Below, one piece after another: positions 35,852-62,704 of a DNA stretch of 64,000 nucleotides; positions within the stretch are counted from its first letter, which is position 1; the number at the start of each line of letters is the position of its first letter. The notes below the pieces were generated by a model, which was given only the letters and a program-made list of their open reading frames with translations, was not told the origin of the DNA and ran no database searches. Made by a program: the position numbers and the translations under genes. The DNA comes from Streptomyces rubrogriseus (GTDB lineage: Bacteria; Actinomycetota; Actinomycetes; Streptomycetales; Streptomycetaceae). The stretch is from contig NZ_CP116256.1 in the NCBI RefSeq assembly GCF_027947575.1, positions 4,340,001 to 4,404,000 on the forward strand. The letters are read 5' to 3'.

Positions 35852-36242
35852 CGAGCCACAGATCTGGTGCGGACGAGTTGGTCAGGTGCAACGGCCCCCG
35901 CCGCGCACAGAGCGTCGACCATTATGGGAGCCCAGGCACAGGTCCCCAGTGATCACAGAGCGTCATAGCTGCATGGTCACAAGGGCTTGTGCCCGTTCTG
36001 TTGCCAAGGCCCCCAACGGCGCCTATCTTCGCGACCTCTAACCCGGCTCTTCGCAGATGAGGGTGTAGTCGTCGTCTGACGGCCGGGCGGCGTGGCGGTC
36101 GTGGTGACGAGGTCGAGGCCCTTCGATGATGGAAGTTCTCATACCCACCATCCGAAAGAGGGGGTCCGCTGTCGGAACAGGTGACAGGTGACAGGTGACA
36201 GGTGACATCTGAACTGCGGTGTCTGAAGGCATCACTGGAAGG
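35852..36242. other. Gap with a short tandem repeat
   Basis: No gene seen. The stretch holds a heptamer array at 36180-36207, just before the IS3-type fragment. Minus-strand open frames here are low-complexity and not supported. Confidence 0.45.
36180..36207. repeat. Four tandem copies of GGTGACA
   Basis: A perfect 4 x 7-bp array 36 bases upstream of the IS3-type OrfA start. It may belong to the element end or be a slippage-prone microsatellite. Confidence 0.85.
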
Positions 36243-37262: not shown

Positions 37263-37632
37263 GGTCGACGTGCTGGAAGCCGTGTGGACCACCGAGCCCG
37301 TCGCGCGACACGAGGGCAGGCACCACACCTTCCTCGCCGCGCACATCGGGCCCAAGCCGCTCCAGCGCCCCCCGGCCACCGATCTACCTGTCCGGCTTCG
37401 CCCCGCCTCCCGACGCCGGATGACCCGCCGCGCGGACGGCGTACCTCCCGTCGCGGTGCTCGTCCGGGGTTCCGCATTCGACCCCGCCACCGAGTCAACC
37501 GTGCCGGGGATCGCGGACATCATCTTCCGTACGGGAGACGAGACGGATGTCGACCACGTCTTCGTCGACTTCGTCCACCTGGCCGACCGCGGCGCGGACC
37601 AGACCCTGGAACTGCTGCGTCAGACGATGTAA
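37263..37632 (+). other. Unrecognised coding-like tail fused in frame to the IstA remnant
   Basis: The frame of the IS21 remnant runs on for about 120 residues that are not IstA. The last part (ADIIFRTGDETDVDHVFVDF and HLADRGADQTLELLRQTM) looks like a true protein C terminus, with a mix of acidic and hydrophobic residues. I do not recognise it. It is probably the end of a gene whose front was replaced by the IS21 fragment. Confidence 0.45.
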
Positions 37633-37687
37633 CTGTCCCGCTGAAGGCCGAGCCGCGAGACGGCGCGGTCCGCCCCCGGGGGCCGCG

Positions 37688-38278
37688 TCATCGCGTCGGT
37701 CCCTCGCGGGCGGTCGAGGTGGCGGCATAGAGCCAACGGCGCAGGACGAGGGTCACAGCCGGCATCATCAGATACGTCATCAACGTACTGAACAGCAGCG
37801 CGAGCATCAGCACCCGCGCCACAAGCGGCCAGGCACGGAGCGCCGGCCCCAACAGACCGTTGCCGATCAGGGAGATCGGGAGTACGGCCGCGAAGGCGGC
37901 GAGCGCCATCTTCCACCGAGGCGGCGCCGTCGTGGGCGTGTCGTGCGCAGTGGTGAACAGGGTCTCCATTCCGGTGAGTTCGCGACGCGCCACCTCGCTC
38001 TGATGATGGCCCTCGCAGTGGTCGAACAGTGCGGCCCGCTCAGGTGACGTCGTCCAGTGCCGCGCGGACTCCTGGTCGCGGAACCGGTGGATCAGAACCC
38101 ATGGCCCGGCGGCCGTGGCAGGCCGGAACAACCCGTCCCCCAGGTGTCCGGGAAACGCTGAGGCGGTGTCTGTCACCCGCCCGAACCACTCCCGGAAGTC
38201 CTGCTCGTAGCCGGGTTCCACAGCGCGCGCGGTCAGCAGGGTGACGTCGGCCGGGCCGACGTCGTCCGTCTCGGTCAT
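37688..38278 (-). CDS. ABM-domain protein with C-terminal membrane helices
   Basis: A 196-residue protein. Residues about 10-105 form an antibiotic biosynthesis monooxygenase-type dimeric barrel (LLTARAVEPGYEQDFREWFG, WVLIHRFRDQESARHWTTSP), a small cofactor-free oxidase or heme-binding fold. After a linker come two or three hydrophobic helices (MALAAFAAVLPISLIGNGLL, VLMLALLFSTLMTYLMMPAV). This membrane-anchored ABM arrangement is known in actinobacteria but its function is not. It follows an aldehyde dehydrogenase gene by 27 bases, so they are probably one operon. Confidence 0.87.
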   Translation of the reverse strand: MTETDDVGPADVTLLTARAVEPGYEQDFREWFGRVTDTASAFPGHLGDGLFRPATAAGPWVLIHRFRDQESARHWTTSPERAALFDHCEGHHQSEVARRELTGMETLFTTAHDTPTTAPPRWKMALAAFAAVLPISLIGNGLLGPALRAWPLVARVLMLALLFSTLMTYLMMPAVTLVLRRWLYAATSTAREGPTR

Positions 38279-38305
38279 CGATTCTCACTCCGCCGTCGAG
38301 AGCTG

Positions 38306-39745
38306 TCAGAGCTGCGGTGCCACATGCACGAGGTGCTTGGTCTCCTGGAATTCCTCGATCCCGCGGATGCCGTTCAGGCGGCCCACTCCCGACTGCTTGA
38401 AGCCGCCCTCCTCGAACTGGTCGTGGATCATGGCCCAGGTGTTGGTCCAGACGGTCCCGGTCTGCAGTTCGCGGCCGACGCGCAGGGGGCGGTCGACATC
38501 ACGGGTCCAGATGCTCGCGGCCAGGCCGAACTCGGTGGCGTTGGCACGCGCGACGGCGTCGGCCTCGGAGTCGAACACCTCGAAGGTGGCGACCGGACCG
38601 AACACTTCGCGCTGCACGATCGGCGAGGACACGTCGGCGACCTCGATCAGGGACGGGCCGAGGAGCGCCCGGTCCCGCTTGCCCCGCACGAGGACGGTGG
38701 CGTAGTCGGCCGCGGCGGCCACGGTCTGTTCGACCCGTTGGGCGTTTCCTTCGTCGATCATGGCGCCCATCTCGCTGGCGGGGTCGTCGCCGGGCCCGAC
38801 CCGGACCGTCTCGAGGGCGGCGACGAGCCGCCGCCGGAGTTCGTCGGCCACGCCGCTCTGGACCAGTATCCGGCTGCCCGTCATGCAGAACTGGCCCGCG
38901 AACATGGTGACGGCCTTGGTGAGCACGGGCACGACGGCGTCCAGGTCGGCGTCGTCGAAGACGAGCATCGGCGTCTTTCCGCCCAGCTCCATGGACAGCG
39001 TTTTCAGCGTCGGGGCGGCCTGTTCCATGATCACGCGGCCGACCGCGGTGGAGCCGGTGTAGCTGAGCACGTCGACGTCCGGGGAGGAGACCAGCTCCGG
39101 AGCCCCGGCGTTGCCGCTCTCGGTGAAGACGTTGAACACGCCCGGGTCCAGGCTCGGCGTGTCGGCGATGATCTCGCTCAGCACTCCGTTGACCAGGCCG
39201 GTCTGCGCCGGCATCTTCATGACCACGGTGCAGCCGGCCGCCAGGGCGGGTGCGAAGGAACGCGCCGAGAGGATGACCGGTGAGTTCCACGGCACGATCA
39301 CCGCGGCGACGCCCGCCGCTTCGCGCAGGGTCATCGAGTACATGCCGGGCCGTACTTCGCCGGCCCTGCCGTGGTCGGTGAGGGCCAGCGCCGCGTGGTA
39401 GCGGAGCTTGGGGATGGTGCCTTCGACTTCGATGGCCGCCTCGGAAAGCACCTTCCCGTTCTCCCGCGCCAGGAGGGTGATCAGTTCGTCCTTGCGCTGC
39501 TCGAGCCGGTCGGCCAGTTCGTGCAGCGCTGCCGCACGCCGGTGACGGTCGCGGGACCAGGCGGTGGTGTTGAAGGCCCTTCGGGCCGCGGCCACGGCGG
39601 CCCTCGCCTCCCGCGCACCGCCGTCGGCGAAGGTGCCGAGCAGGCCGTTCGTCGCGGGGCTGCGGGACTCGCCGCGGGAGCCGGAGTCCTGCCACTGCCC
39701 GTCGATGTAGTGGCGCGCGTGCGGCAGGGTTTCGGACTTGGGCAT
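38306..39745 (-). CDS. Aldehyde dehydrogenase, NAD(P)-dependent
   Basis: A 479-residue aldehyde dehydrogenase oxidising an aldehyde to the acid. Diagnostic parts: VIVPWNSPVILSARSFAPAL, CTVVMKMP, SYTGSTAVGRVIMEQ (cofactor), ELGGKTPM with the general-base Glu (about residue 255), FAGQFCMTGSR with the catalytic Cys (about 290), and EVFGPVATFEVF. GxGRLNGIRGIEEFQETKH at the end is normal. The start at 39745 is preceded by AGAGGT. Operon with the ABM protein downstream; together they may detoxify or produce an aromatic or aliphatic acid. Confidence 0.95.
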   Translation of the reverse strand: MPKSETLPHARHYIDGQWQDSGSRGESRSPATNGLLGTFADGGAREARAAVAAARRAFNTTAWSRDRHRRAAALHELADRLEQRKDELITLLARENGKVLSEAAIEVEGTIPKLRYHAALALTDHGRAGEVRPGMYSMTLREAAGVAAVIVPWNSPVILSARSFAPALAAGCTVVMKMPAQTGLVNGVLSEIIADTPSLDPGVFNVFTESGNAGAPELVSSPDVDVLSYTGSTAVGRVIMEQAAPTLKTLSMELGGKTPMLVFDDADLDAVVPVLTKAVTMFAGQFCMTGSRILVQSGVADELRRRLVAALETVRVGPGDDPASEMGAMIDEGNAQRVEQTVAAAADYATVLVRGKRDRALLGPSLIEVADVSSPIVQREVFGPVATFEVFDSEADAVARANATEFGLAASIWTRDVDRPLRVGRELQTGTVWTNTWAMIHDQFEEGGFKQSGVGRLNGIRGIEEFQETKHLVHVAPQL

Positions 39746-41986
39746 GAGGTGACCTCTCGTCATGCGTCGCACGGCGTTTCGCCGCGGGTACGCGGGACAA
39801 CGTCAGCGACGCTACAAATGAGGGCCGGTGAGCGAATCGGGCGGGCAATCCGTCACTTCCGCCGGAGGCGTCGCGCGCCCGCTCCGCCGCGGCCTCCCTG
39901 TGCTCACGGTGGCTCACAACCGGCGTGAAGGTGGCTCAGCTCGGTTCGGGTGTTGATGCCGAGCTTGGCGAACACGTTCCCGAGGTGGTGGCCCACGGTG
40001 CGGTGGCTGATCCGCAGCTGTACGCCGATCTCGCGATTCGTCAGCTGTTCGGCGGCCAGTTCGGCGACTCGCTGTTCCTGGGCGGTGAGCTGGTTCATCG
40101 CCCTGGTGTCCGAGCTTCCCCGGCGGCCCGGCGCTCCGGTGAGGTCCTGCTCGCGCTGCGCGCGTTGGCGCAGCGGCTCGGCACCGAGCCGCTCGAACGC
40201 CTCCAAGGCAGCGCCGATCCGGACGCGCGCATCGGTCCGCCGGCGGCCCCGTCGCAACCACTCGCCGTAGGACAACTGAGCGCGCGCGTAGAGCAGCGCA
40301 TGGGATCGGGCACCCGGCACGTCGAGTGCGGCCCGGAAGGCACCCTCGGCCCGGGCGCCGCCGAGGAGCCCGCGCGTGACGTGCGCGGCACAGCGGGCCC
40401 ACGGCGCTCCCGTGTGTCGCGCCCAGGCTTCGAGCACCCGTACCCGTTCGTCCGCGAGGTCGCTCCTGCCGACGCGCACGGCCGCCTCGGCCGTGTCGAG
40501 AGCGGTCAGGAGCGCGAAGGTCGGGTGTTCCGCGCCATGGCCCGGCTCGGTCAGGCGCACCAGGATGTCCAGTGCTTCCTCGGGGCGCTCGCGAAACAGC
40601 GAGGCCATGCCGCGGTTCCAGTACGCGGCGGCGCTCAGCGCGCGGACGCCCTGCGGGAGTGACGTCTCCAGAGTCCTGGCGGTGGCCTCCGCGACGGCGC
40701 GTTCGTCACCACGCGCCGCGGCGAGCCAGCCCAGGCTGGTGCGGCAGTGGGAGGCGATGTGGTCGGCACCTAGGTCCTGGGCCAGCCGCAGTCCCTCCGC
40801 GGCCGAGGACTCCGCTTGCGGCCAGCGGCCGGCAGCGTTGTCCAGCATCGCGGTCTGGGCCAGGGCGGCGGCGAGCCGAGCGCGCTCGCTGCGCCGCCGC
40901 AGGCGCGGCAACCGGCGGCGCAGCGCATCCGCCATCGGCTCGTCGATCCCCCAGGCCAGGGCGAGGGGTGTCGGCGGCAGCAACGGCAGGATGGTCGTAC
41001 GGACCCGCGCGGCGGCATCACCGAGGTCGGGGATGTCCGCCGGCGCCGCGTCGGCGGACACGTCGTCGCTCCACCAGGCAAGCGTGCCGGGTAATCCGGT
41101 CCGGCCCGCGACGTCGTCTTCGAGCAGCAGCTCCAGCGCTCTGTCCCGCAGGTCGCCGCGTCCGACGGACCAGGCGGCGCGCATGGCCAGCGTGCCCAGT
41201 TCCAGCGCCGTTCCCGGTTCCGGGACGCGCTTCATGTCGGTGATCAGGAAGTGGTGCGCCATCTCGGGCATGCCCCGGGCGAACTCCATGATCCCCCGCA
41301 GGCCCCGGCTCCGCCGGGCGACGTGAGCACCGGGGGCCAGCCGTTCCGCGTCATCGAGCAGGCGCTGCGCCGTGGCTGCCCACCCGGCGTCCCAGGAAGC
41401 CCTGGCCGCCTCGGCAAGGCGTTGTGAGGCGTCGATCGGTACGGCCGACAGTTCGGCGGCCCGCCACCACGCCCGTGCCGCCGTGTTCGTGGCCCCGCGG
41501 AGCCGGGAGCGGACGGCGGTCCGTTCGAGGAGCCGCGCGACGTCCTCATCGCGTCCGTGGACCAGGGCGGCGAGATGCCATGCGCGCTCCTCCGCCTCGT
41601 CCGGCATCGTGGCGGCCAGGGCGCGGTGAGCCCGGCGCCTCGTCGCGGCACCGCAGCCCTCGTAGACGGCTCTGCTCACGACCGGGTGCCGGAAACCGAC
41701 GCGGTTGCCCGCCACGTGGAGCAGGCCCGCGTTGGTCACTTCCTCCCAGACGGCGTCACCGGCACCCGACGCACGTCCGGCCCGCTGCACCGTGAGCCGG
41801 TCGCCGTGCTCCTCGGCCGCCGCGAGCACGGTCAGCAACTGCGCCGGAGGGCTCAGGGCCTCGATCCTGGCACGGAAAGCCCGCTGCAGGCACGGCCCGA
41901 CGGGCGGTCGTCCTCGCTTCCGGCGATGCTCGGCGTCGTCGAGGTCGCCCCCGAGCGTGGCCAGTTCGTGCAGCGCCAAGGGGTTG

Positions 41987-41992
41987 CCCCCC
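41987..41992. repeat. Run of six C (six G in coding strand), second slip site
   Basis: In the LAL regulator the peptide MVREAGG is in one frame and NPLALHEL in the next; the switch lies at this homopolymer, where five G would keep them together. It adds a second frame change 20 bases past the octamer array. Confidence 0.7.
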
Positions 41993-42011
41993 GGCCTCCC
42001 GGACCATGCTC

Positions 42012-42091
42012 CGCCTCGTCGCCTCGTCGCCTCGTCGCCTCGTCGCCTCGTCGCCTCGTCGCCTCGTCGCCTCGTCGCCTCGTCGCCTCGT
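42012..42091. repeat. Ten tandem copies of the octamer CGCCTCGT
   Basis: A perfect 80-bp array (coding strand ACGAGGCG) inside the ATPase domain of the LAL regulator. Three units make 24 bases, so each frame stays open and encodes a T-R-R-R-G-D-E-A cycle, while adding or losing one unit changes the frame. This is the structure of phase-variable contingency loci. Confidence 0.97.
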
Positions 42092-42739
42092 CGGTGAGCG
42101 GCGCCACGGCCGCCACAAGCTGCTGCGCGCTCTCGTCGCTCAGGCCGTCGACCCGCACGTCGGCCACGCCTTCCCAGGGCCGGGCGGCCGGATCGCTGTG
42201 ATCGGCGAGCACGACGACCACGGGATGCGCTCCCACGCGTCGGGCGACGAACCCCAGGCACAGCGCGGTGGCCTCGTCGAGCCACTGCCCGTCGTCCACC
42301 ACGACGAGCACGGGCTGCCGCTCGGCGAGTCCGCGGAGCAGCGACAGCACGGCCGCCCCGACCACCAGGCGGTCCGTCGGCTCACCGCTCAGCCCGAGCG
42401 CCGTACGCACAGCGGCGGCCTGGGCCGTCGCCAGCAGCTCGACACGATCGGCCAGCGGTCGCAGCAGCCCGTGCAGCCCCGCGAAAGCCAGGTCCGACTC
42501 GGGCCGGGTGGCCGAGTGGCTCAGCCGGACGAAGCCCGCGGCCTGGCCATGCACGTGGCGAAGCAGAGCTGACTTGCCGATACCCGGCTCGCCCCACACC
42601 ACGAGCGCGCCACCGCTCCCGCCGCGGGCCTGCGTAAGCAGCCCGTCGAGAACCGCGGTCTCCTCGCGGCGTCCGAACAGCTCCGTCGGCGCTGCCCCTG
42701 TCGCAGCTTGGTCACCGGGCCCGCCACGCGCGCACCGCA

Positions 42740-43642
42740 TCACGTCACGCGTTCGGACTGGACGAGTTCGCGGGCGCGCGGCGCGACCTCGTGACCGAAG
42801 AGGTTCAGGTCGGCAGGATCGTCCGAGGCGAGGATGAACCCGGACACGCCGTACTGCAGGGCGAGGTCGGCGATTTGTTCGGCCCAGTCGCCGGGAGTCC
42901 CCTGCAACAGGCCGCCGCCGGCGCCGGACGTGAATCGGCCGCTCAGGTTGAGCAGGCGGCTGACCGCCGCGGGCTCCCGACCGGCGGCGGAGGCGGCCTC
43001 GTCGATCTGCTCGTTCATCGCGCGCAGCGATGCCGGGCCCTCGGGCAGGAAACCCAGGGAGGGCAGCCAACCGTCGGCGATCCTGCCCGTCAGCCGGAGC
43101 ATGCGCGGCTTGTAGGCACCGATGCGGATCGGGATGCGATGGGCGGGTGCCGGGCCGCGCTTGGCGCCGTTCACGGTGTAGAACTCCCCGGTGACACGGA
43201 GGGGACCGGTCTCGTCGGTGGCCCACAGCCCCCGGATCACGCCCACGGCCTCCTCCACCGCCCGCACGGCCTGGGCCGGTTCGAGCCGGCGGCCTCCCAT
43301 CGCGACGATGCCGTCCCAGAACGCGCCCGCGCCGATGCCCAGTTCGACTCGCCCGCCGGTCAGCCGGTCCAGGCTCGCGGCGGCGCGGGCCAGCACGGCC
43401 GGGGGCCGCAGCGGAAGGCTCAGCACGTTGCCGCTGATCCGGATCCGTTCGGTGCGTGCGGCGACGTACGACATCAGGGTCCAGGTGTCCTGGAACGCCG
43501 ACTGGTAGGGGTGGTCCTGGAAGCTGACCAGGTCGAGGCCGGCCCTCTCGGAGGTCTGGGCCAGCTCGACCGGCGCCTGAGGCGGGTGGGCGGTGGGGGT
43601 GATGAAGCTGCCGAACCACAGTTCGTGGCCGTAGTCGCTCAT
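42740..43642 (-). CDS. LLM-class (luciferase-like) flavin-dependent monooxygenase
   Basis: A 300-residue TIM-barrel protein of the bacterial luciferase-like family using reduced FMN or F420. Typical parts are WFGSFITPTAHPPQAPVELA, GLDLVSFQDHPYQSAFQD, VLSLPLRPPAVLARAAASLD, GGRVELGIGAGAFWDGIVAM and IPIRIGAYKPRMLRLTG, with the end ILASDDPADLNLFGHEVAP. The stop overlaps the LAL regulator start; its own start overlaps the stop of the upstream fusion gene (ATGA). All three are therefore one coupled operon, with regulator dosage tied to enzyme translation. Confidence 0.94.
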   Translation of the reverse strand: MSDYGHELWFGSFITPTAHPPQAPVELAQTSERAGLDLVSFQDHPYQSAFQDTWTLMSYVAARTERIRISGNVLSLPLRPPAVLARAAASLDRLTGGRVELGIGAGAFWDGIVAMGGRRLEPAQAVRAVEEAVGVIRGLWATDETGPLRVTGEFYTVNGAKRGPAPAHRIPIRIGAYKPRMLRLTGRIADGWLPSLGFLPEGPASLRAMNEQIDEAASAAGREPAAVSRLLNLSGRFTSGAGGGLLQGTPGDWAEQIADLALQYGVSGFILASDDPADLNLFGHEVAPRARELVQSERVT

Positions 43643-45879
43643 GGGGTGCTTCCTCCGGGGTGGTTCGCGGCGGGTGTGAGGGCGAAGTTGTCGCCGAACA
43701 CGCCCTCGGGGTCGTAGACGCTCTTCAGCTCACGCAGACGCGTGAGGGTCCGTGGGGGCCATGCCGCGGTGATCCGCTCGGGCCGGAGGCTGGACTCGAA
43801 GCTGATGTAGAGGCCGTCGAGGAAAGGGCTCAGCCGGGCCCAGGCCAGGTCGACCACCTCGTCGTCACCGCCCATCACCACCAGCGAGAAGTTCGCGTCG
43901 CGGTGGGCGTAGGCCGTGGCGTCCGCGGGGACATCGGCGACGGCGCCCCCGACCGAGCGGAGCTGGAACCATCCGATCGCGCCGCTGCGGATCATCTGAG
44001 CCGCCGCCGCAGCGAACTGCGGGGTCACGTGCCGGAGCAGTCCGCTGCGTGAGACCGGTTCACCCTGGGAGACCGGTGGGTCGTCGCTCGCGTTGTCCAT
44101 CACGGCCGCGTAGGAGGTGATGACGATGTCCTGGGCATAGATCGCGGAGATCGCGGCCAGTGGCTTCAGCCGGGCGCGCACGGTCTCCGGGTCCGAGGAG
44201 TCGACCATGGTGTGGCTCACCGCGAGCGCCGGACGTCCGCCGCGCGGGGGCGGCACGATGAGGAAGCTGGTGAGGTCCCGCGGTGAGTCCTCCACCGCCC
44301 GGCCCCACTCGACGAGGTAGCGCTCGAGGTCGCTCGCGTCCTGGGTGAGCCGGGCGAAGGCGACCGCGCCCACGTCGTCGGCCTCGAACTCGAAGGCAGT
44401 GACGATCCCGAAGTTCGCGCCCGCCCCTCGCACGGCCCAGAAGAGATCGGGGTTCTCCGCATCGTCGGCCCGCACGACGGAGCCGTCCGCGAGCACCATC
44501 TCCACGGCCCGCAGGCGGTCGATGGTCAGTCCGTGCCCGCGCGCGAGGTACCCGATGCCCCCCGCCGTGGCGAGGCCGCCCACCCCGACGCCCCCGTAGT
44601 CGCCCGAACTCAACGCCCAGCCGTAGGGCTCCAGTGCGGCCGCCACCTCGGCCCAGCGCGCACCCGGGCCGATGCGCACCCGGCGTGTCTTCCTGTCGAG
44701 CACCTCGATCGCATTCATCAGTGACACGTCGATGACGATCCCGCCGTCATTGGTGGAGCGGCCGGAGACCCCGTGTCCGGCGCTTCGCCGAGACAGGGCC
44801 ACGCCGGGATGCCGGCGGGCGAACGCGAGCGCCTGGGTCACCTGCTCGTTCGTCGCCGCCCGCAGGATGATGCCGGGCGCACCACCGCGCAGGTATCCGG
44901 ACCGCAGTCGGGCGTAGGCCGGATCACCGGGCTCGACGACCTCGGCCATCTCCGGCGGAGCGCCCTCGTAGTCGATCCCCGGTCGGCGCCTGGCGCGCAC
45001 GGCGGACCGCCGGACCCGCGCGCCCGACCATCCGCGCAAAAGCACCGCGTCCACGGCCGCCCGCAGGGCCGGGGCGACCTCGCTCGCGAAGCCTGCCGCG
45101 ACGTCTCGCTCCACGGTGTCCAGCACGATGGTGCCCACCCCGTGCTCGACGACGAGTGGCAGCAGGTCGTTCACCCAGTCCGCGGCGGTCCCGGTGAACC
45201 TGCCTGTCCGCTCGCCGAAGCCACCGCGGATCGTGACCCGTCTGCGGATCTCGCGGGGATCGCGGCCTGCCCCTCGCGCCGCCTCGTCGACTGCGCGGTT
45301 GCCCTGCGTCAGCGTGGCGGCGTCGCACCCCGTCGACCACTCGTCAGCCCGCAGCCCGACCAGCCGGAGCAGGTCTTGGTCCTGGCCGTCCACGGAGATC
45401 GGCACGTCGTGCGCGGGCGCGGCCTTCTCAGCTCCCGCGAGACGGTGGAAGCGGCCGGTGAACCGGCCGAGGCCACGGTCGAGGACATTCCAGAGCTCGC
45501 GGACGACGGCGATCGCCTCACCCAGTGCCGCGACCGAATCGGCTGTCCCGGACGCGGCGGCTGACGGGCCCGCCCGGAAAGCCAGTTCGACCCTGCCTTC
45601 GGTGAGCCGGTCCAGGCCCGCGACGGCTCGCGCGAGCATCGCCGGATGGAGGGTGTCGGGGCGTGCCTCCAGCACCAGTCCGAGAGAGACCGTCGCCGCG
45701 GCGATCCAGGCCGCCACAGTCGAGGGTTCGAGATCGTCGCCGGCGGTTCCGGCCGGGACGACCAGCAAGTCCAGCCCCCACTGCTCGGCCAGGCCCGCCA
45801 CTTCGACCAACCGGCCGGGTCCGCAGTCGGCGTCGGAGGGCAGGTGCAGCCCGAATCTCAGCGCGTGCCCGTAGTTCAT
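43639..45879 (-). CDS. Fusion of LLM-like domain and FAD-binding (BBE-type) oxidoreductase
   Basis: A 746-residue protein with two enzymes in one chain. Residues 1 to about 285 are luciferase-like (MNYGHALRFGLHLPSDADCG, MLARAVAGLDRLTEGRVELA, TIVLDTVERDVAAGFASEVA), paralogous to the next gene. From about residue 310 it is a p-cresol-methylhydroxylase-type FAD oxidase: ILRAATNEQVTQALAFARRH, SRRSAGHGVSGRSTNDGGIV (the His position used for covalent FAD in berberine-bridge enzymes), YGGVGVGGLATAGGIGYLAR and AVRGAGANFGIVTAFEFEAD, with the BBE end LKSVYDPEGVFGDNFAL. I chose 45879 by similarity to the next gene start; 45918 is an alternative. The divergent HxlR gene probably controls it. Confidence 0.88.
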   Translation of the reverse strand: MNYGHALRFGLHLPSDADCGPGRLVEVAGLAEQWGLDLLVVPAGTAGDDLEPSTVAAWIAAATVSLGLVLEARPDTLHPAMLARAVAGLDRLTEGRVELAFRAGPSAAASGTADSVAALGEAIAVVRELWNVLDRGLGRFTGRFHRLAGAEKAAPAHDVPISVDGQDQDLLRLVGLRADEWSTGCDAATLTQGNRAVDEAARGAGRDPREIRRRVTIRGGFGERTGRFTGTAADWVNDLLPLVVEHGVGTIVLDTVERDVAAGFASEVAPALRAAVDAVLLRGWSGARVRRSAVRARRRPGIDYEGAPPEMAEVVEPGDPAYARLRSGYLRGGAPGIILRAATNEQVTQALAFARRHPGVALSRRSAGHGVSGRSTNDGGIVIDVSLMNAIEVLDRKTRRVRIGPGARWAEVAAALEPYGWALSSGDYGGVGVGGLATAGGIGYLARGHGLTIDRLRAVEMVLADGSVVRADDAENPDLFWAVRGAGANFGIVTAFEFEADDVGAVAFARLTQDASDLERYLVEWGRAVEDSPRDLTSFLIVPPPRGGRPALAVSHTMVDSSDPETVRARLKPLAAISAIYAQDIVITSYAAVMDNASDDPPVSQGEPVSRSGLLRHVTPQFAAAAAQMIRSGAIGWFQLRSVGGAVADVPADATAYAHRDANFSLVVMGGDDEVVDLAWARLSPFLDGLYISFESSLRPERITAAWPPRTLTRLRELKSVYDPEGVFGDNFALTPAANHPGGSTP

Positions 45880-45954
45880 AGCGCGTGGTGACAGGCCGAG
45901 TGTGCGTTCATGGGCCAAGGCTGCACGGCGATGATCACAGGCGACAAGCGGGAC

Positions 45955-45967
45955 ATGACCAGGTCAT
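45955..45967. promoter_or_regulatory. Candidate HxlR operator
   Basis: ATGACC-A-GGTCAT is a perfect inverted repeat in the 119-base gap between the divergent fusion-oxidase and HxlR genes, 32 bases before the HxlR start. Confidence 0.5.
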
Positions 45968-45998
45968 CAAAAGTGACACGCTCCAGTATCGTGACCGT

Positions 45999-46391
45999 AT
46001 GACCGGTCCTCGACAGCCCGATGATTCCTCCGCCACTGCGGGCCAGAGCCGCCCGGAAGCAGGCTACGAACACATCGACGACGACGTGTGCCGCAGTTTT
46101 CAGCGCTCGGTCGAGATCGTGGGCAAGAAGTGGAGCGCCGCGGTGCTCCTGGCGGCGATGCGGGGCGCGCGCCGATTCGTCGACTACCGAGCGCGGATCC
46201 CCGGAATCTCGAACCAACTTCTGTCCCAGCGTCTGCGTGAGCTCGAGGGCCACCGACTCATTGAGCGGCTCGTGGTACCGACGACGCCGGTCCAGATCAC
46301 GTACCGGCCCACCGAACAAGGCGCCAGCCTGATGCGCGTCCTGCATCCGCTGATCGAATGGAGCGCCAGGAACCAGGACATGGACACCTGA
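45999..46391 (+). CDS. HxlR family transcriptional regulator
   Basis: A 130-residue winged-helix protein. The HxlR core is clear: CRSFQRSVEIVGKKWSAAVL, LAAMRGARRFVDYRARIPGI, SNQLLSQRLRELEGHRLIER (recognition helix and wing) and YRPTEQGASLMRVLHPLIEW. The conserved N-terminal Cys (DDDVC), used for redox or aldehyde sensing in several relatives, is present. Divergent from the flavoenzyme operon and probably its switch. Confidence 0.92.
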   Translation: MTGPRQPDDSSATAGQSRPEAGYEHIDDDVCRSFQRSVEIVGKKWSAAVLLAAMRGARRFVDYRARIPGISNQLLSQRLRELEGHRLIERLVVPTTPVQITYRPTEQGASLMRVLHPLIEWSARNQDMDT

Positions 46392-46500
46392 CGAACTGGT
46401 CGCAGGCCGCCCACGCACTCGATCCGTCGCGTACCGGGACCGGTGGTCGCGCTGGCGGCCGCTCGCGGTGTGGCTTCAGCAATGCGGGGACAGGAACGGG

Positions 46501-60004: not shown

Positions 60005-62704
60005 TCATCTCCGTCCGGAGATGCCGGTGGCCGCCAAGTCGCGCCGTGAGCAGAGCCCCAGCTTGGCGAACACGTTGGATAGGTGATGCCCGACGGTGCG
60101 GTCGCTGATCCGCAGACGAGCCCCGATCTCCCGGTTGGTCAGATCGCCGGCGGCAAGCTGGGCCACCCGGCGTTCCTGTGCCGTCAGCGTTGCCATGCCC
60201 GTGCCGGCGGCAGTGTTACGGCGTGCGGGTGCCATGATCAGACGCTGCTCACGCCGGGCCCGCTCGAGCATCGGGTGCGCTCCCAGTGCGTGGAACGTCT
60301 CGGCAGCGGCGTCGAGCTGCTGGCGGGCGTCTCGGCGCCGCCGCTGTCGCCGCAACCACTCGCCGTAGAGCAGCCGGGCCCGTGCGTGGTCGAACGGGCG
60401 CCGGGACGCACCGGGCACGTCCAGCGCCGCCCGGTAGGACCGTTCGGCGGCGGGTTCGTCCAGCAGTGCGCGTGCCAGGTGTGCTGTGAATCTCGCCCAG
60501 TGCGCGCCGGTGCGCCGTACCCAGGCGTCGAGCGCCTCGGCGCGGCGCTGGCCGATCTCCGGCCGCCGCGCGTGCACGGCGGCCTCGATCGTGTCCAGGC
60601 TTGCCAGCAGAGCGACGATCGGATGTGCTGCCTCGTGCCCGTGCTCGTCCAAGCGGGCGAGCAGGTCGAGTGCAGCATCGGCGCGACCGGCCGCCAGAGC
60701 GGCCATTCCACGGTTCCAGTGGGCCGAGGCGCTGACCGCACGGTCGCGGCGCGGCCCGGCCAGCTGCAGGGTCCGAACGGTCAGATTGTCGACGCTGCGG
60801 CCGTCACCGCGGGCGGCGGCGAGCCATCCGAGGCAGTTCCGGCACTCCGCAGCGATGTGCTCGGCACCGATCCGCTCGGCCGACGCGAGCCCCTCGGCCG
60901 CGGCGTCCTCCGCAGCGCCCCACCGGCCCGCGGCGATGTCGAGTCGCGCGATCCGAGCCAGCGCCGCAGCAAGCGAGGTGCCATCGGCGTGACGGCGGTG
61001 CCTGCGGACAAGGGCGTGCACGGCATCGGCGAGTGGCTCGTCGAGGCCCCACACCAGTCCGAGCGGCGACGCTGGGAGCAGCTGCGACTCCACCCGGGAG
61101 ATGTGCGCCATGACGTCACCGAGTTCTGCCGACGACGCTGCCTGTGCCGGGTCCGTCGCCGGCCCCCACCACGTCCGGACGATCGGGAGGACGTCGGGCA
61201 GCCCAGGGGTCGTCAGCCCCGCGAGACGAGTGAGGGTCTCGCCGACGAGGTCGTCGCGGGCCGCGGACCATCCCGCGTGCAGGGCAGCGGCGCCGAGCTC
61301 CACTCTCATGCGCGGATCGTCGAACGCGGCGATGTCGCGACTGATCGATCGGTGGGCTCGTTCCAGAGACCCCTCGGCGAGTTCGAGTACCCCGCGCAGG
61401 CCGCGGCTGGCGCGGGTGGTCAGGACCTCGTCGGTCAGGCTCCGGGCATCGGCCAGCAGCCGACGCGCCATCGTGGCGTCGCCGCCGTGCCAGGCGGCCA
61501 CGGCCGCGCGGGCGAGCCTGCGGGTCGCAGCGGCCGGGTCGGCGGACAGTTCGGCGGCCCGCCGCAGGATCGGTACCGCGCCGGCGCCCGAGGGCACCGT
61601 CTGCTCGAGCAGCCCGGCGATCTCCTCGTCGACGTCGTGAACGGTCGCGGCCCGGTGCCAGACATGCCCGCGACTGCCCGGGGGAAGAGCGGCGGCCAGG
61701 GTCCGGTGGGCGTTCCTGCGTTCAGACGGGGAGGCGCTCGCGTAGACAGCGGCCCGGACCACCGGGTGCCGTAGCGCAGGCCGGTCGGGCGTCCCGGCGA
61801 GCAGGCCCGACCAGGTCGTCTCCTCCCAGACCGGCTCCTCGGCGTCGCGGGAACGTGCTGACCGTGCGAGCGTGAGCTGGTCACCGTCGGCACGAGCCGC
61901 GGCCATGAGCACGACGAACTCGCGTGCCGGGGTCGGCATGGTCTGCAGGCGCTCGGCGAAGGCCTTACGCAGCCGGGGCCCCACGGGCACCGTGTCGGCG
62001 GCAAGATCGTCGATTGGTATAGGCAGCTCGTGCAGTGCCAGCGGGTTGCCCCCACCTGCTTTCACCGCGCGGGTGATCTCGGGGCCGTCGAGGCCGGGGT
62101 GAGCGGCGGCGACCAGTTGGGCGGCGTGGTCGTCAGCGAGAGGACTCACCGCGAGCGGATCGACCCCCTCCCACGATCCGTCGGCGGGCACGTCGTGGCC
62201 GGCGACGAGGACCACCACCGGATCGGTCCCCACCCGCCGGGCGACGAATCCGAGCACGAACTCGGTCTCCGCGTCGAGCCGGTGTGCGTCGTCCACGACG
62301 ATCAGGAGCGGGCGGTCGACTGCCAGCGTCGACAACAGGGACAGGACCGCCACGGCGGTGAGTGACCGGCCCGCTCCGGTGACCTCGCCCGCGAGCACGC
62401 CTCGCAACGCTGCCGCCTGGGACACCGGAAGAGTCGCGATCAGGTGCTCGACCGGCCGGAGTAGCGTGTCCAGGCCGGCGAAGGGGGTCCCGGACTCGCA
62501 CCGTGCGGGCTGTACCGCCAGCGGGGCGAAATCGGGAGACGCCGCGGTGACGTGGTCGAGAAGTGCGGTCTTGCCGATGCCCGGCTCACCCCAGAGCACC
62601 AGGGCGCCACCGGAGCCACGGCGGGCTCGGTCGAGCACCTCGGTCACGGCAGCGATCTCTGCCTGTCGTCCGACGAGCGGAGCCGGAGCACCGGTTGCCC
62701 TCAT
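60005..62704 (-). CDS. LAL-type (MalT-like) LuxR family regulator
   Basis: A full-length 899-residue STAND regulator. Walker A GEPGIGKT at residues 39-46, Walker B LLIVVDDAH near 135, GGGNPLALHELPIPIDDL near 218, a long helical TPR-like sensor region (RDIAAFDDPRMRVELGAAAL, AAGRWGAAEDAAAEGLASAE, HWNRGMAALAAGRADAALDL), and a C-terminal LuxR HTH (LTAQERRVAQLAAGDLTNRE, LRISDRTVGHHLSNVFAKLG). It is a clear paralogue of the repeat-disrupted gene at 39904. The ATG overlaps the TGA of a truncated LLM gene, just as in that operon. It probably activates a secondary-metabolic or flavoenzyme operon on binding ATP and an inducer. Confidence 0.95.
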   Translation of the reverse strand: MRATGAPAPLVGRQAEIAAVTEVLDRARRGSGGALVLWGEPGIGKTALLDHVTAASPDFAPLAVQPARCESGTPFAGLDTLLRPVEHLIATLPVSQAAALRGVLAGEVTGAGRSLTAVAVLSLLSTLAVDRPLLIVVDDAHRLDAETEFVLGFVARRVGTDPVVVLVAGHDVPADGSWEGVDPLAVSPLADDHAAQLVAAAHPGLDGPEITRAVKAGGGNPLALHELPIPIDDLAADTVPVGPRLRKAFAERLQTMPTPAREFVVLMAAARADGDQLTLARSARSRDAEEPVWEETTWSGLLAGTPDRPALRHPVVRAAVYASASPSERRNAHRTLAAALPPGSRGHVWHRAATVHDVDEEIAGLLEQTVPSGAGAVPILRRAAELSADPAAATRRLARAAVAAWHGGDATMARRLLADARSLTDEVLTTRASRGLRGVLELAEGSLERAHRSISRDIAAFDDPRMRVELGAAALHAGWSAARDDLVGETLTRLAGLTTPGLPDVLPIVRTWWGPATDPAQAASSAELGDVMAHISRVESQLLPASPLGLVWGLDEPLADAVHALVRRHRRHADGTSLAAALARIARLDIAAGRWGAAEDAAAEGLASAERIGAEHIAAECRNCLGWLAAARGDGRSVDNLTVRTLQLAGPRRDRAVSASAHWNRGMAALAAGRADAALDLLARLDEHGHEAAHPIVALLASLDTIEAAVHARRPEIGQRRAEALDAWVRRTGAHWARFTAHLARALLDEPAAERSYRAALDVPGASRRPFDHARARLLYGEWLRRQRRRRDARQQLDAAAETFHALGAHPMLERARREQRLIMAPARRNTAAGTGMATLTAQERRVAQLAAGDLTNREIGARLRISDRTVGHHLSNVFAKLGLCSRRDLAATGISGRR

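Follow-up and report, generated by a model that had tools for sequence, protein, structure and literature searches.

A frame-disrupting octamer expansion in a LuxR regulator gene of Streptomyces rubrogriseus

The LuxR gene and its neighbouring cluster

The window analysed here, a stretch of 64,000 nucleotides from the S. rubrogriseus genome (contig NZ_CP116256.1, positions 4,340,001 to 4,404,000), carries on its minus strand a small cluster of enzyme genes around a gene for a LAL-type LuxR regulator with AAA_16 and GerE domains. The gene starts at the ATG at 42740, and from there the N-terminal frame (41853..42740, minus strand) runs for 295 residues to a stop at 41853, as the first-pass annotation had it; this frame includes the AAA_16 domain and has no helix-turn-helix. 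The C-terminal frame (39904..41988, minus strand) is read from GNPLALHEL onward and continues without interruption to the GerE helix-turn-helix. Upstream, the gene for an LLM-class flavoenzyme (Bac_luciferase; 42740..43642, minus strand) has a stop codon that overlaps the LuxR start (TGATG), and further upstream lies that for a fusion enzyme combining Bac_luciferase and FAD_binding_4 (43639..45879, minus strand). Downstream are the genes for an aldehyde dehydrogenase (38306..39745, minus strand) and an ABM-domain protein (37688..38278, minus strand). These four other cluster genes are open, and each could be aligned end to end with three or more relatives.

An intact orthologue from S. ureilyticus (L039/L046) encodes 923 residues, with the Pfam domains AAA_16 at 20-177 and GerE at 862-915, such that a P-loop ATPase and a LuxR helix-turn-helix reside in one protein. 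The arrangement of an N-terminal AAA_16 and a C-terminal GerE domain is likewise that of LAL-type LuxR regulators, whereas the S. rubrogriseus copy is interrupted and carries its ATPase and helix-turn-helix domains in different frames. When the LuxR protein was compared with NCBIfam, no match above cut-off was obtained. The window also contains a paralogue, at 60005-62599, which is an open frame and has at the corresponding site the same short spacing that two octamer units would give, in agreement with the first-pass annotation.

The octamer array

Ten perfect contiguous units of CGCCTCGT occupy 42012-42091 (minus strand); on the coding strand the unit reads GACGAGGC, and the array begins at codon 217 of the LuxR gene. 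The count of ten reported earlier is confirmed, and a chance origin of the repeat is ruled out, given that 100 dinucleotide-shuffled versions of the window yielded not even a two-unit match. As the unit length of eight is not a multiple of three, the array shifts the reading frame of the coding gene in which it lies, a property of phase-variable loci; none of the three minus-strand frames across it contains a stop, as had been stated from the first inspection.

A three-unit probe gives a single match in the whole 8.41 Mb one-contig genome, namely the array itself, and a four-unit probe, (GACGAGGC)4, matched one of the 392 genomes of a genus sample, which is that of S. rubrogriseus. With 82 bases of perfect repeat, it is the longest array of non-triplet period in the window and 2.0 Mb of evenly spaced stretches of the same genome, where the next two measure 47 and 46 bases; on these lengths, we rejected the notion that genes of this genome commonly carry such arrays. 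One array with a 15-base period in the same sample is 83 bases long, one base longer than the octamer array, and the longest non-triplet array in 65 other loci (0.97 Mb) has 62 bases. Seven other non-triplet arrays were inspected, some of them at or past gene ends as judged by GC3 alone.

A few other arrays deserve mention. At the 3' end of a high-GC3 open reading frame elsewhere in the S. rubrogriseus genome (~3862853; L156:2853-2898) stands an octamer array of 5.8 copies of GGTGACGA, the unit of which resembles that of the LuxR array, and an array of six copies of CAACCCGG is present in Catellatospora paridis (L085:11003). The window itself holds a perfect heptamer array, ACAGGTG (4.4 copies, 36177-36207), just upstream of the start, at ~36250, of what we take by eye from its first residues to be a possible transposase.

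A second frame lesion and the effect of unit number

The first-pass annotation had treated the array as the single lesion of the frame. Past the array, however, REAGG and GGNPLALHEL stand in successive frames of the coding strand, because a run of G (41987..41992, minus strand; C6 on the plus strand) counts six bases in the window and five in the closest relatives. The extra base lies 20-25 bases beyond the array, and with the closest relative as reference the net changes are +64 and +1, that is, two frame lesions; a model in which the array alone breaks the frame was therefore rejected. Runs of six G also occur in the MP131-18 and S. acidicola orthologues, but no base has been added in these two, as the alanine codon before the run is GCG.

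The consequences of unit number were followed by translating 1-12 units in silico with the window's own flanks. Ten units yield the 295-residue product. With 2, 5 or 8 units the REAGG stretch is restored and the frame is then lost at the extra G, with a stop at 306-322 residues, while 3, 6, 9 or 12 units give open frames of 926, 934, 942 and 950 residues. The stretch before GGNPLAL in these open frames is RRRGGAWSGRP at 3, 6 and 9 units (the same frame at 12), as against TTRNMVREA in the orthologue. Hence the earlier proposal that nine units would give a full-length protein holds for the open frame, of 942 residues, but not for its product, which exceeds the 923 residues of the orthologue by 19, has a rewritten helix and is not the native protein. 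The native protein is restored by none of the unit numbers from 1 to 12.

The rewritten segment falls on a predicted helix. In an AlphaFold2 model of orthologue residues 1-360 (mean pLDDT 74.8, pTM 0.58), residues 218-228 form a helix directly before GGNP, and the start of the array at codon 217 coincides with it. Among 25 homologues, the fourth residue before the GGNPLAL motif is V in 24 and I in one, and the last is A in 21 and G in four; this count draws on 26 of 62 loci of a named scan that were read at the site, minus S. tendae, whose gene is frameshifted. V225 and A228 do not vary in an alignment of 19 homologues that omits L069-L072 (a stop codon is reported in L069), and the frames at 3, 6, 9 and 12 units lose those helix residues. 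Changes in unit number do not reach the native protein, and any working full-length form would have to tolerate the rewritten helix.

Comparison with relatives

The comparison with orthologues that had been suggested as a check was carried out on 12 of them, all from other species. A DNA-level search of 392 Streptomyces genomes (that of S. rubrogriseus included) gave six other genomes with the array site, the named scan added at least six more species, and a search of 248 genomes labelled as relatives returned two orthologues, both already in the set. All 12 have the two-unit length at the array site, and neither extra units nor variation in unit number was found among them, by which a switch conserved across species is rejected. 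The two units of the closest relative are imperfect, reading GACGAGGC GACGACGC, and others among the orthologues carry substitutions. Ten of the 12 are free of frameshifts across essentially the whole protein. The S. tendae orthologue is split over three frames and that of S. acidicola over about six pieces, in both cases by frameshifts unrelated to the array. In S. tendae JCM 4610 (L052, 4445-5002), the LuxR gene is broken by single-base deletions, one of them at most 10 bases from the site of the extra G in the window; the LLM and aldehyde dehydrogenase genes of this strain, by contrast, can be aligned over their full length.

Over the cluster as a whole (window 37688-46500), identity is ~92-98% in ten of the 12 relatives and ~84-88% in the other two. 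Such near identity across many species may reflect horizontal spread. Pieces of the cluster are absent in some relatives; for example, there is no LLM match at the S. sedi locus.

Origin of the array, repair background and selection

An expansion from about two to ten units in the S. rubrogriseus lineage, as first proposed from the paralogue, is well supported on comparative grounds. The ancestral two-unit length stands; what the proposal had not foreseen is that the ancestral units are imperfect, so that a substitution is needed as well. Relative to the closest relative, a C-to-G change makes the two ancestral octamers perfect. We infer that this change perfected two adjacent imperfect octamers, and that replication slippage would then have grown them to ten. 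The one-base gain in the G run would be a separate event, which may have come before or after the expansion.

The repair background was surveyed by protein matches. The S. rubrogriseus genome has a NucS match (controls matched in 7 of 14) and no MutS_V match (controls matched in 11 of 14). Mycobacteria are described, in the accessible part of one report, as lacking MutS/L and as having a NucS said to correct substitutions, not frameshifts (PMC10159617). NucS in S. rubrogriseus may likewise leave frameshifts uncorrected, and the array probably continues to be prone to changes in length.

Selection on the two parts of the gene was compared in nine of the 12 relatives, leaving out S. tendae and S. 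acidicola as broken and MP131-18 for its 79% protein identity. In the comparison with the closest relative, the parts before and after the array have dN/dS values of 0.57 and 0.58, respectively; with the eight others, the ranges are 0.40-1.04 before and 0.30-0.52 after. No further stops occur after the array. The part behind the break has thus not decayed faster, which implies that the break is recent or that the frame is still read at times. The dN/dS values fit both alike, and they are the main result that leaves a switch open.

Inactivation and its alternatives

The reading that we consider probable is that slippage expansion together with a second indel inactivated a LAL regulator in the S. 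rubrogriseus lineage, and that the gene is an incipient pseudogene, not an evolved switch. The frame is disrupted relative to intact orthologues, as in a pseudogene, and the gene in its present form specifies an ATPase fragment of 295 residues that lacks the DNA-binding domain, beside enzyme genes that are open at full length. Because changes in unit number alone cannot restore the native protein, the array acts as an inactivating mutation. Two observations pull the other way: the C-terminal part shows no extra decay, which fits a frame that is sometimes read, and the extra G has the sign that yields a full-length frame at 3, 6, 9 and 12 units, like a frameshift scar.

The first-pass annotation had proposed a stochastic on/off switch; on the frames found here, the gene would be OFF at ten units and ON at nine (or 3, 6 or 12). 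For such a switch to work, the extra G would have to act as a frame correction, and the inserted peptide repeats and altered helix would have to be tolerated. The array is indeed perfect, long and frame-changing, it lies in a genome without a MutS_V match, and both the full-length frames at 3, 6, 9 and 12 units and the lack of extra decay after it speak for switching. Slippage switching also exists in Streptomyces, where phase variation of the Pgl system of S. coelicolor is attributed, in the part of the account available to us, to a G tract in pglX (PMC4365076). Nevertheless, the restored forms lose the conserved V and A of the helix before GGNPLAL, none of the 12 orthologues has extra units, and two are simply broken by other frameshifts. 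The proposal thus did not find support, and a phase-variable switch appears unlikely. A similarly unlikely, more specific version is a two-site slippage switch, in which the ON phase falls on multiples of three owing to the added G, the ATPase domain accommodates TRRRGDEA repeats, and a LAL regulator beside the flavoenzyme cluster is toggled while NucS leaves slippage uncorrected.

A further possibility is that the array length, the extra G, or both result from faulty sequencing or assembly. A span of ~30 bases contains two private substitutions and two indels, for which P is ~4e-4 under a random spread of 33 private events, a value computed post hoc; for the two substitutions alone, P is 0.044. 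The clustering could stem from an error-prone local event as well as from an assembly error. Indel noise, however, is low: apart from the extra G, the alignment to the closest relative over 37601-44600 shows a single one-base gap. The invention of eight perfect extra units was judged improbable, so that we hold an artefact to be quite unlikely. It is very unlikely that the broken gene still acts, whether through a C-terminal helix-turn-helix protein made by re-initiation or a ribosomal frame shift, or through some role of the fragment: although the C-terminal frame has 694 open codons and, in the same frame, an open reading frame of 793 codons (39904-42285, GTG start) spans the array, the ATPase domain would be absent or out of frame.

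Relation to known systems

The first-pass annotation knew of no phase variation by octamers established in Streptomyces. In the open-access literature searched, octamer-driven repeat switching was found in neither Streptomyces nor other actinobacteria, which is no proof of absence; the statement holds for octamers only, given the pglX case. The likeness to pglX lies in the genus and in a frame change that follows from a change of repeat length inside a coding gene. The difference is that pglX has a homopolymeric G tract, for which the part of the account at hand gives switching frequencies and a phage-resistance phenotype (PMC4365076), whereas S. rubrogriseus has an octamer and a second lesion.

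Among the simple sequence repeats of Haemophilus influenzae, octanucleotide arrays are listed as possible mediators, and tetranucleotide arrays lie at or just after the start codon with two exceptions, according to the sections available of one survey (PMC2651432). The same sections describe a heptamer array, with a frameshift, that lies 3.5 kb into an open reading frame of 7.3 kb (PMC2651432), and for this reason the mid-gene position of the S. rubrogriseus array (codon 217 of 923) does not by itself exclude a switch. Both systems have non-triplet units in multiple copies, one of the H. influenzae loci being this heptamer deep in an open reading frame. In contrast, as far as those sections go, the H. 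influenzae arrays vary between strains and the octamers stand upstream of or between genes (PMC2651432), while the S. rubrogriseus array lies mid-domain at a site of invariant length in 12 orthologues of other species.

A further parallel may be sought in Mycobacterium tuberculosis, in which frameshift scars have been described (PMC8339072); judging from the excerpt available, these are likewise actinobacterial and consist of two nearby indels that together could restore a frame. The S. rubrogriseus allele differs in being out of frame, its restored state being hypothetical.

Significance

If the expansion has done nothing but inactivate the LuxR gene, the locus offers a clean case of octamer growth from two to ten units within a gene, in a NucS-positive genome without a MutS match, and would be useful for studies of slippage with this repair machinery. 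If the array should be variable in length and the variation be accompanied by a phenotype, it would represent an octamer-driven regulator switch in Streptomyces, to be set beside the known G tract of pglX.
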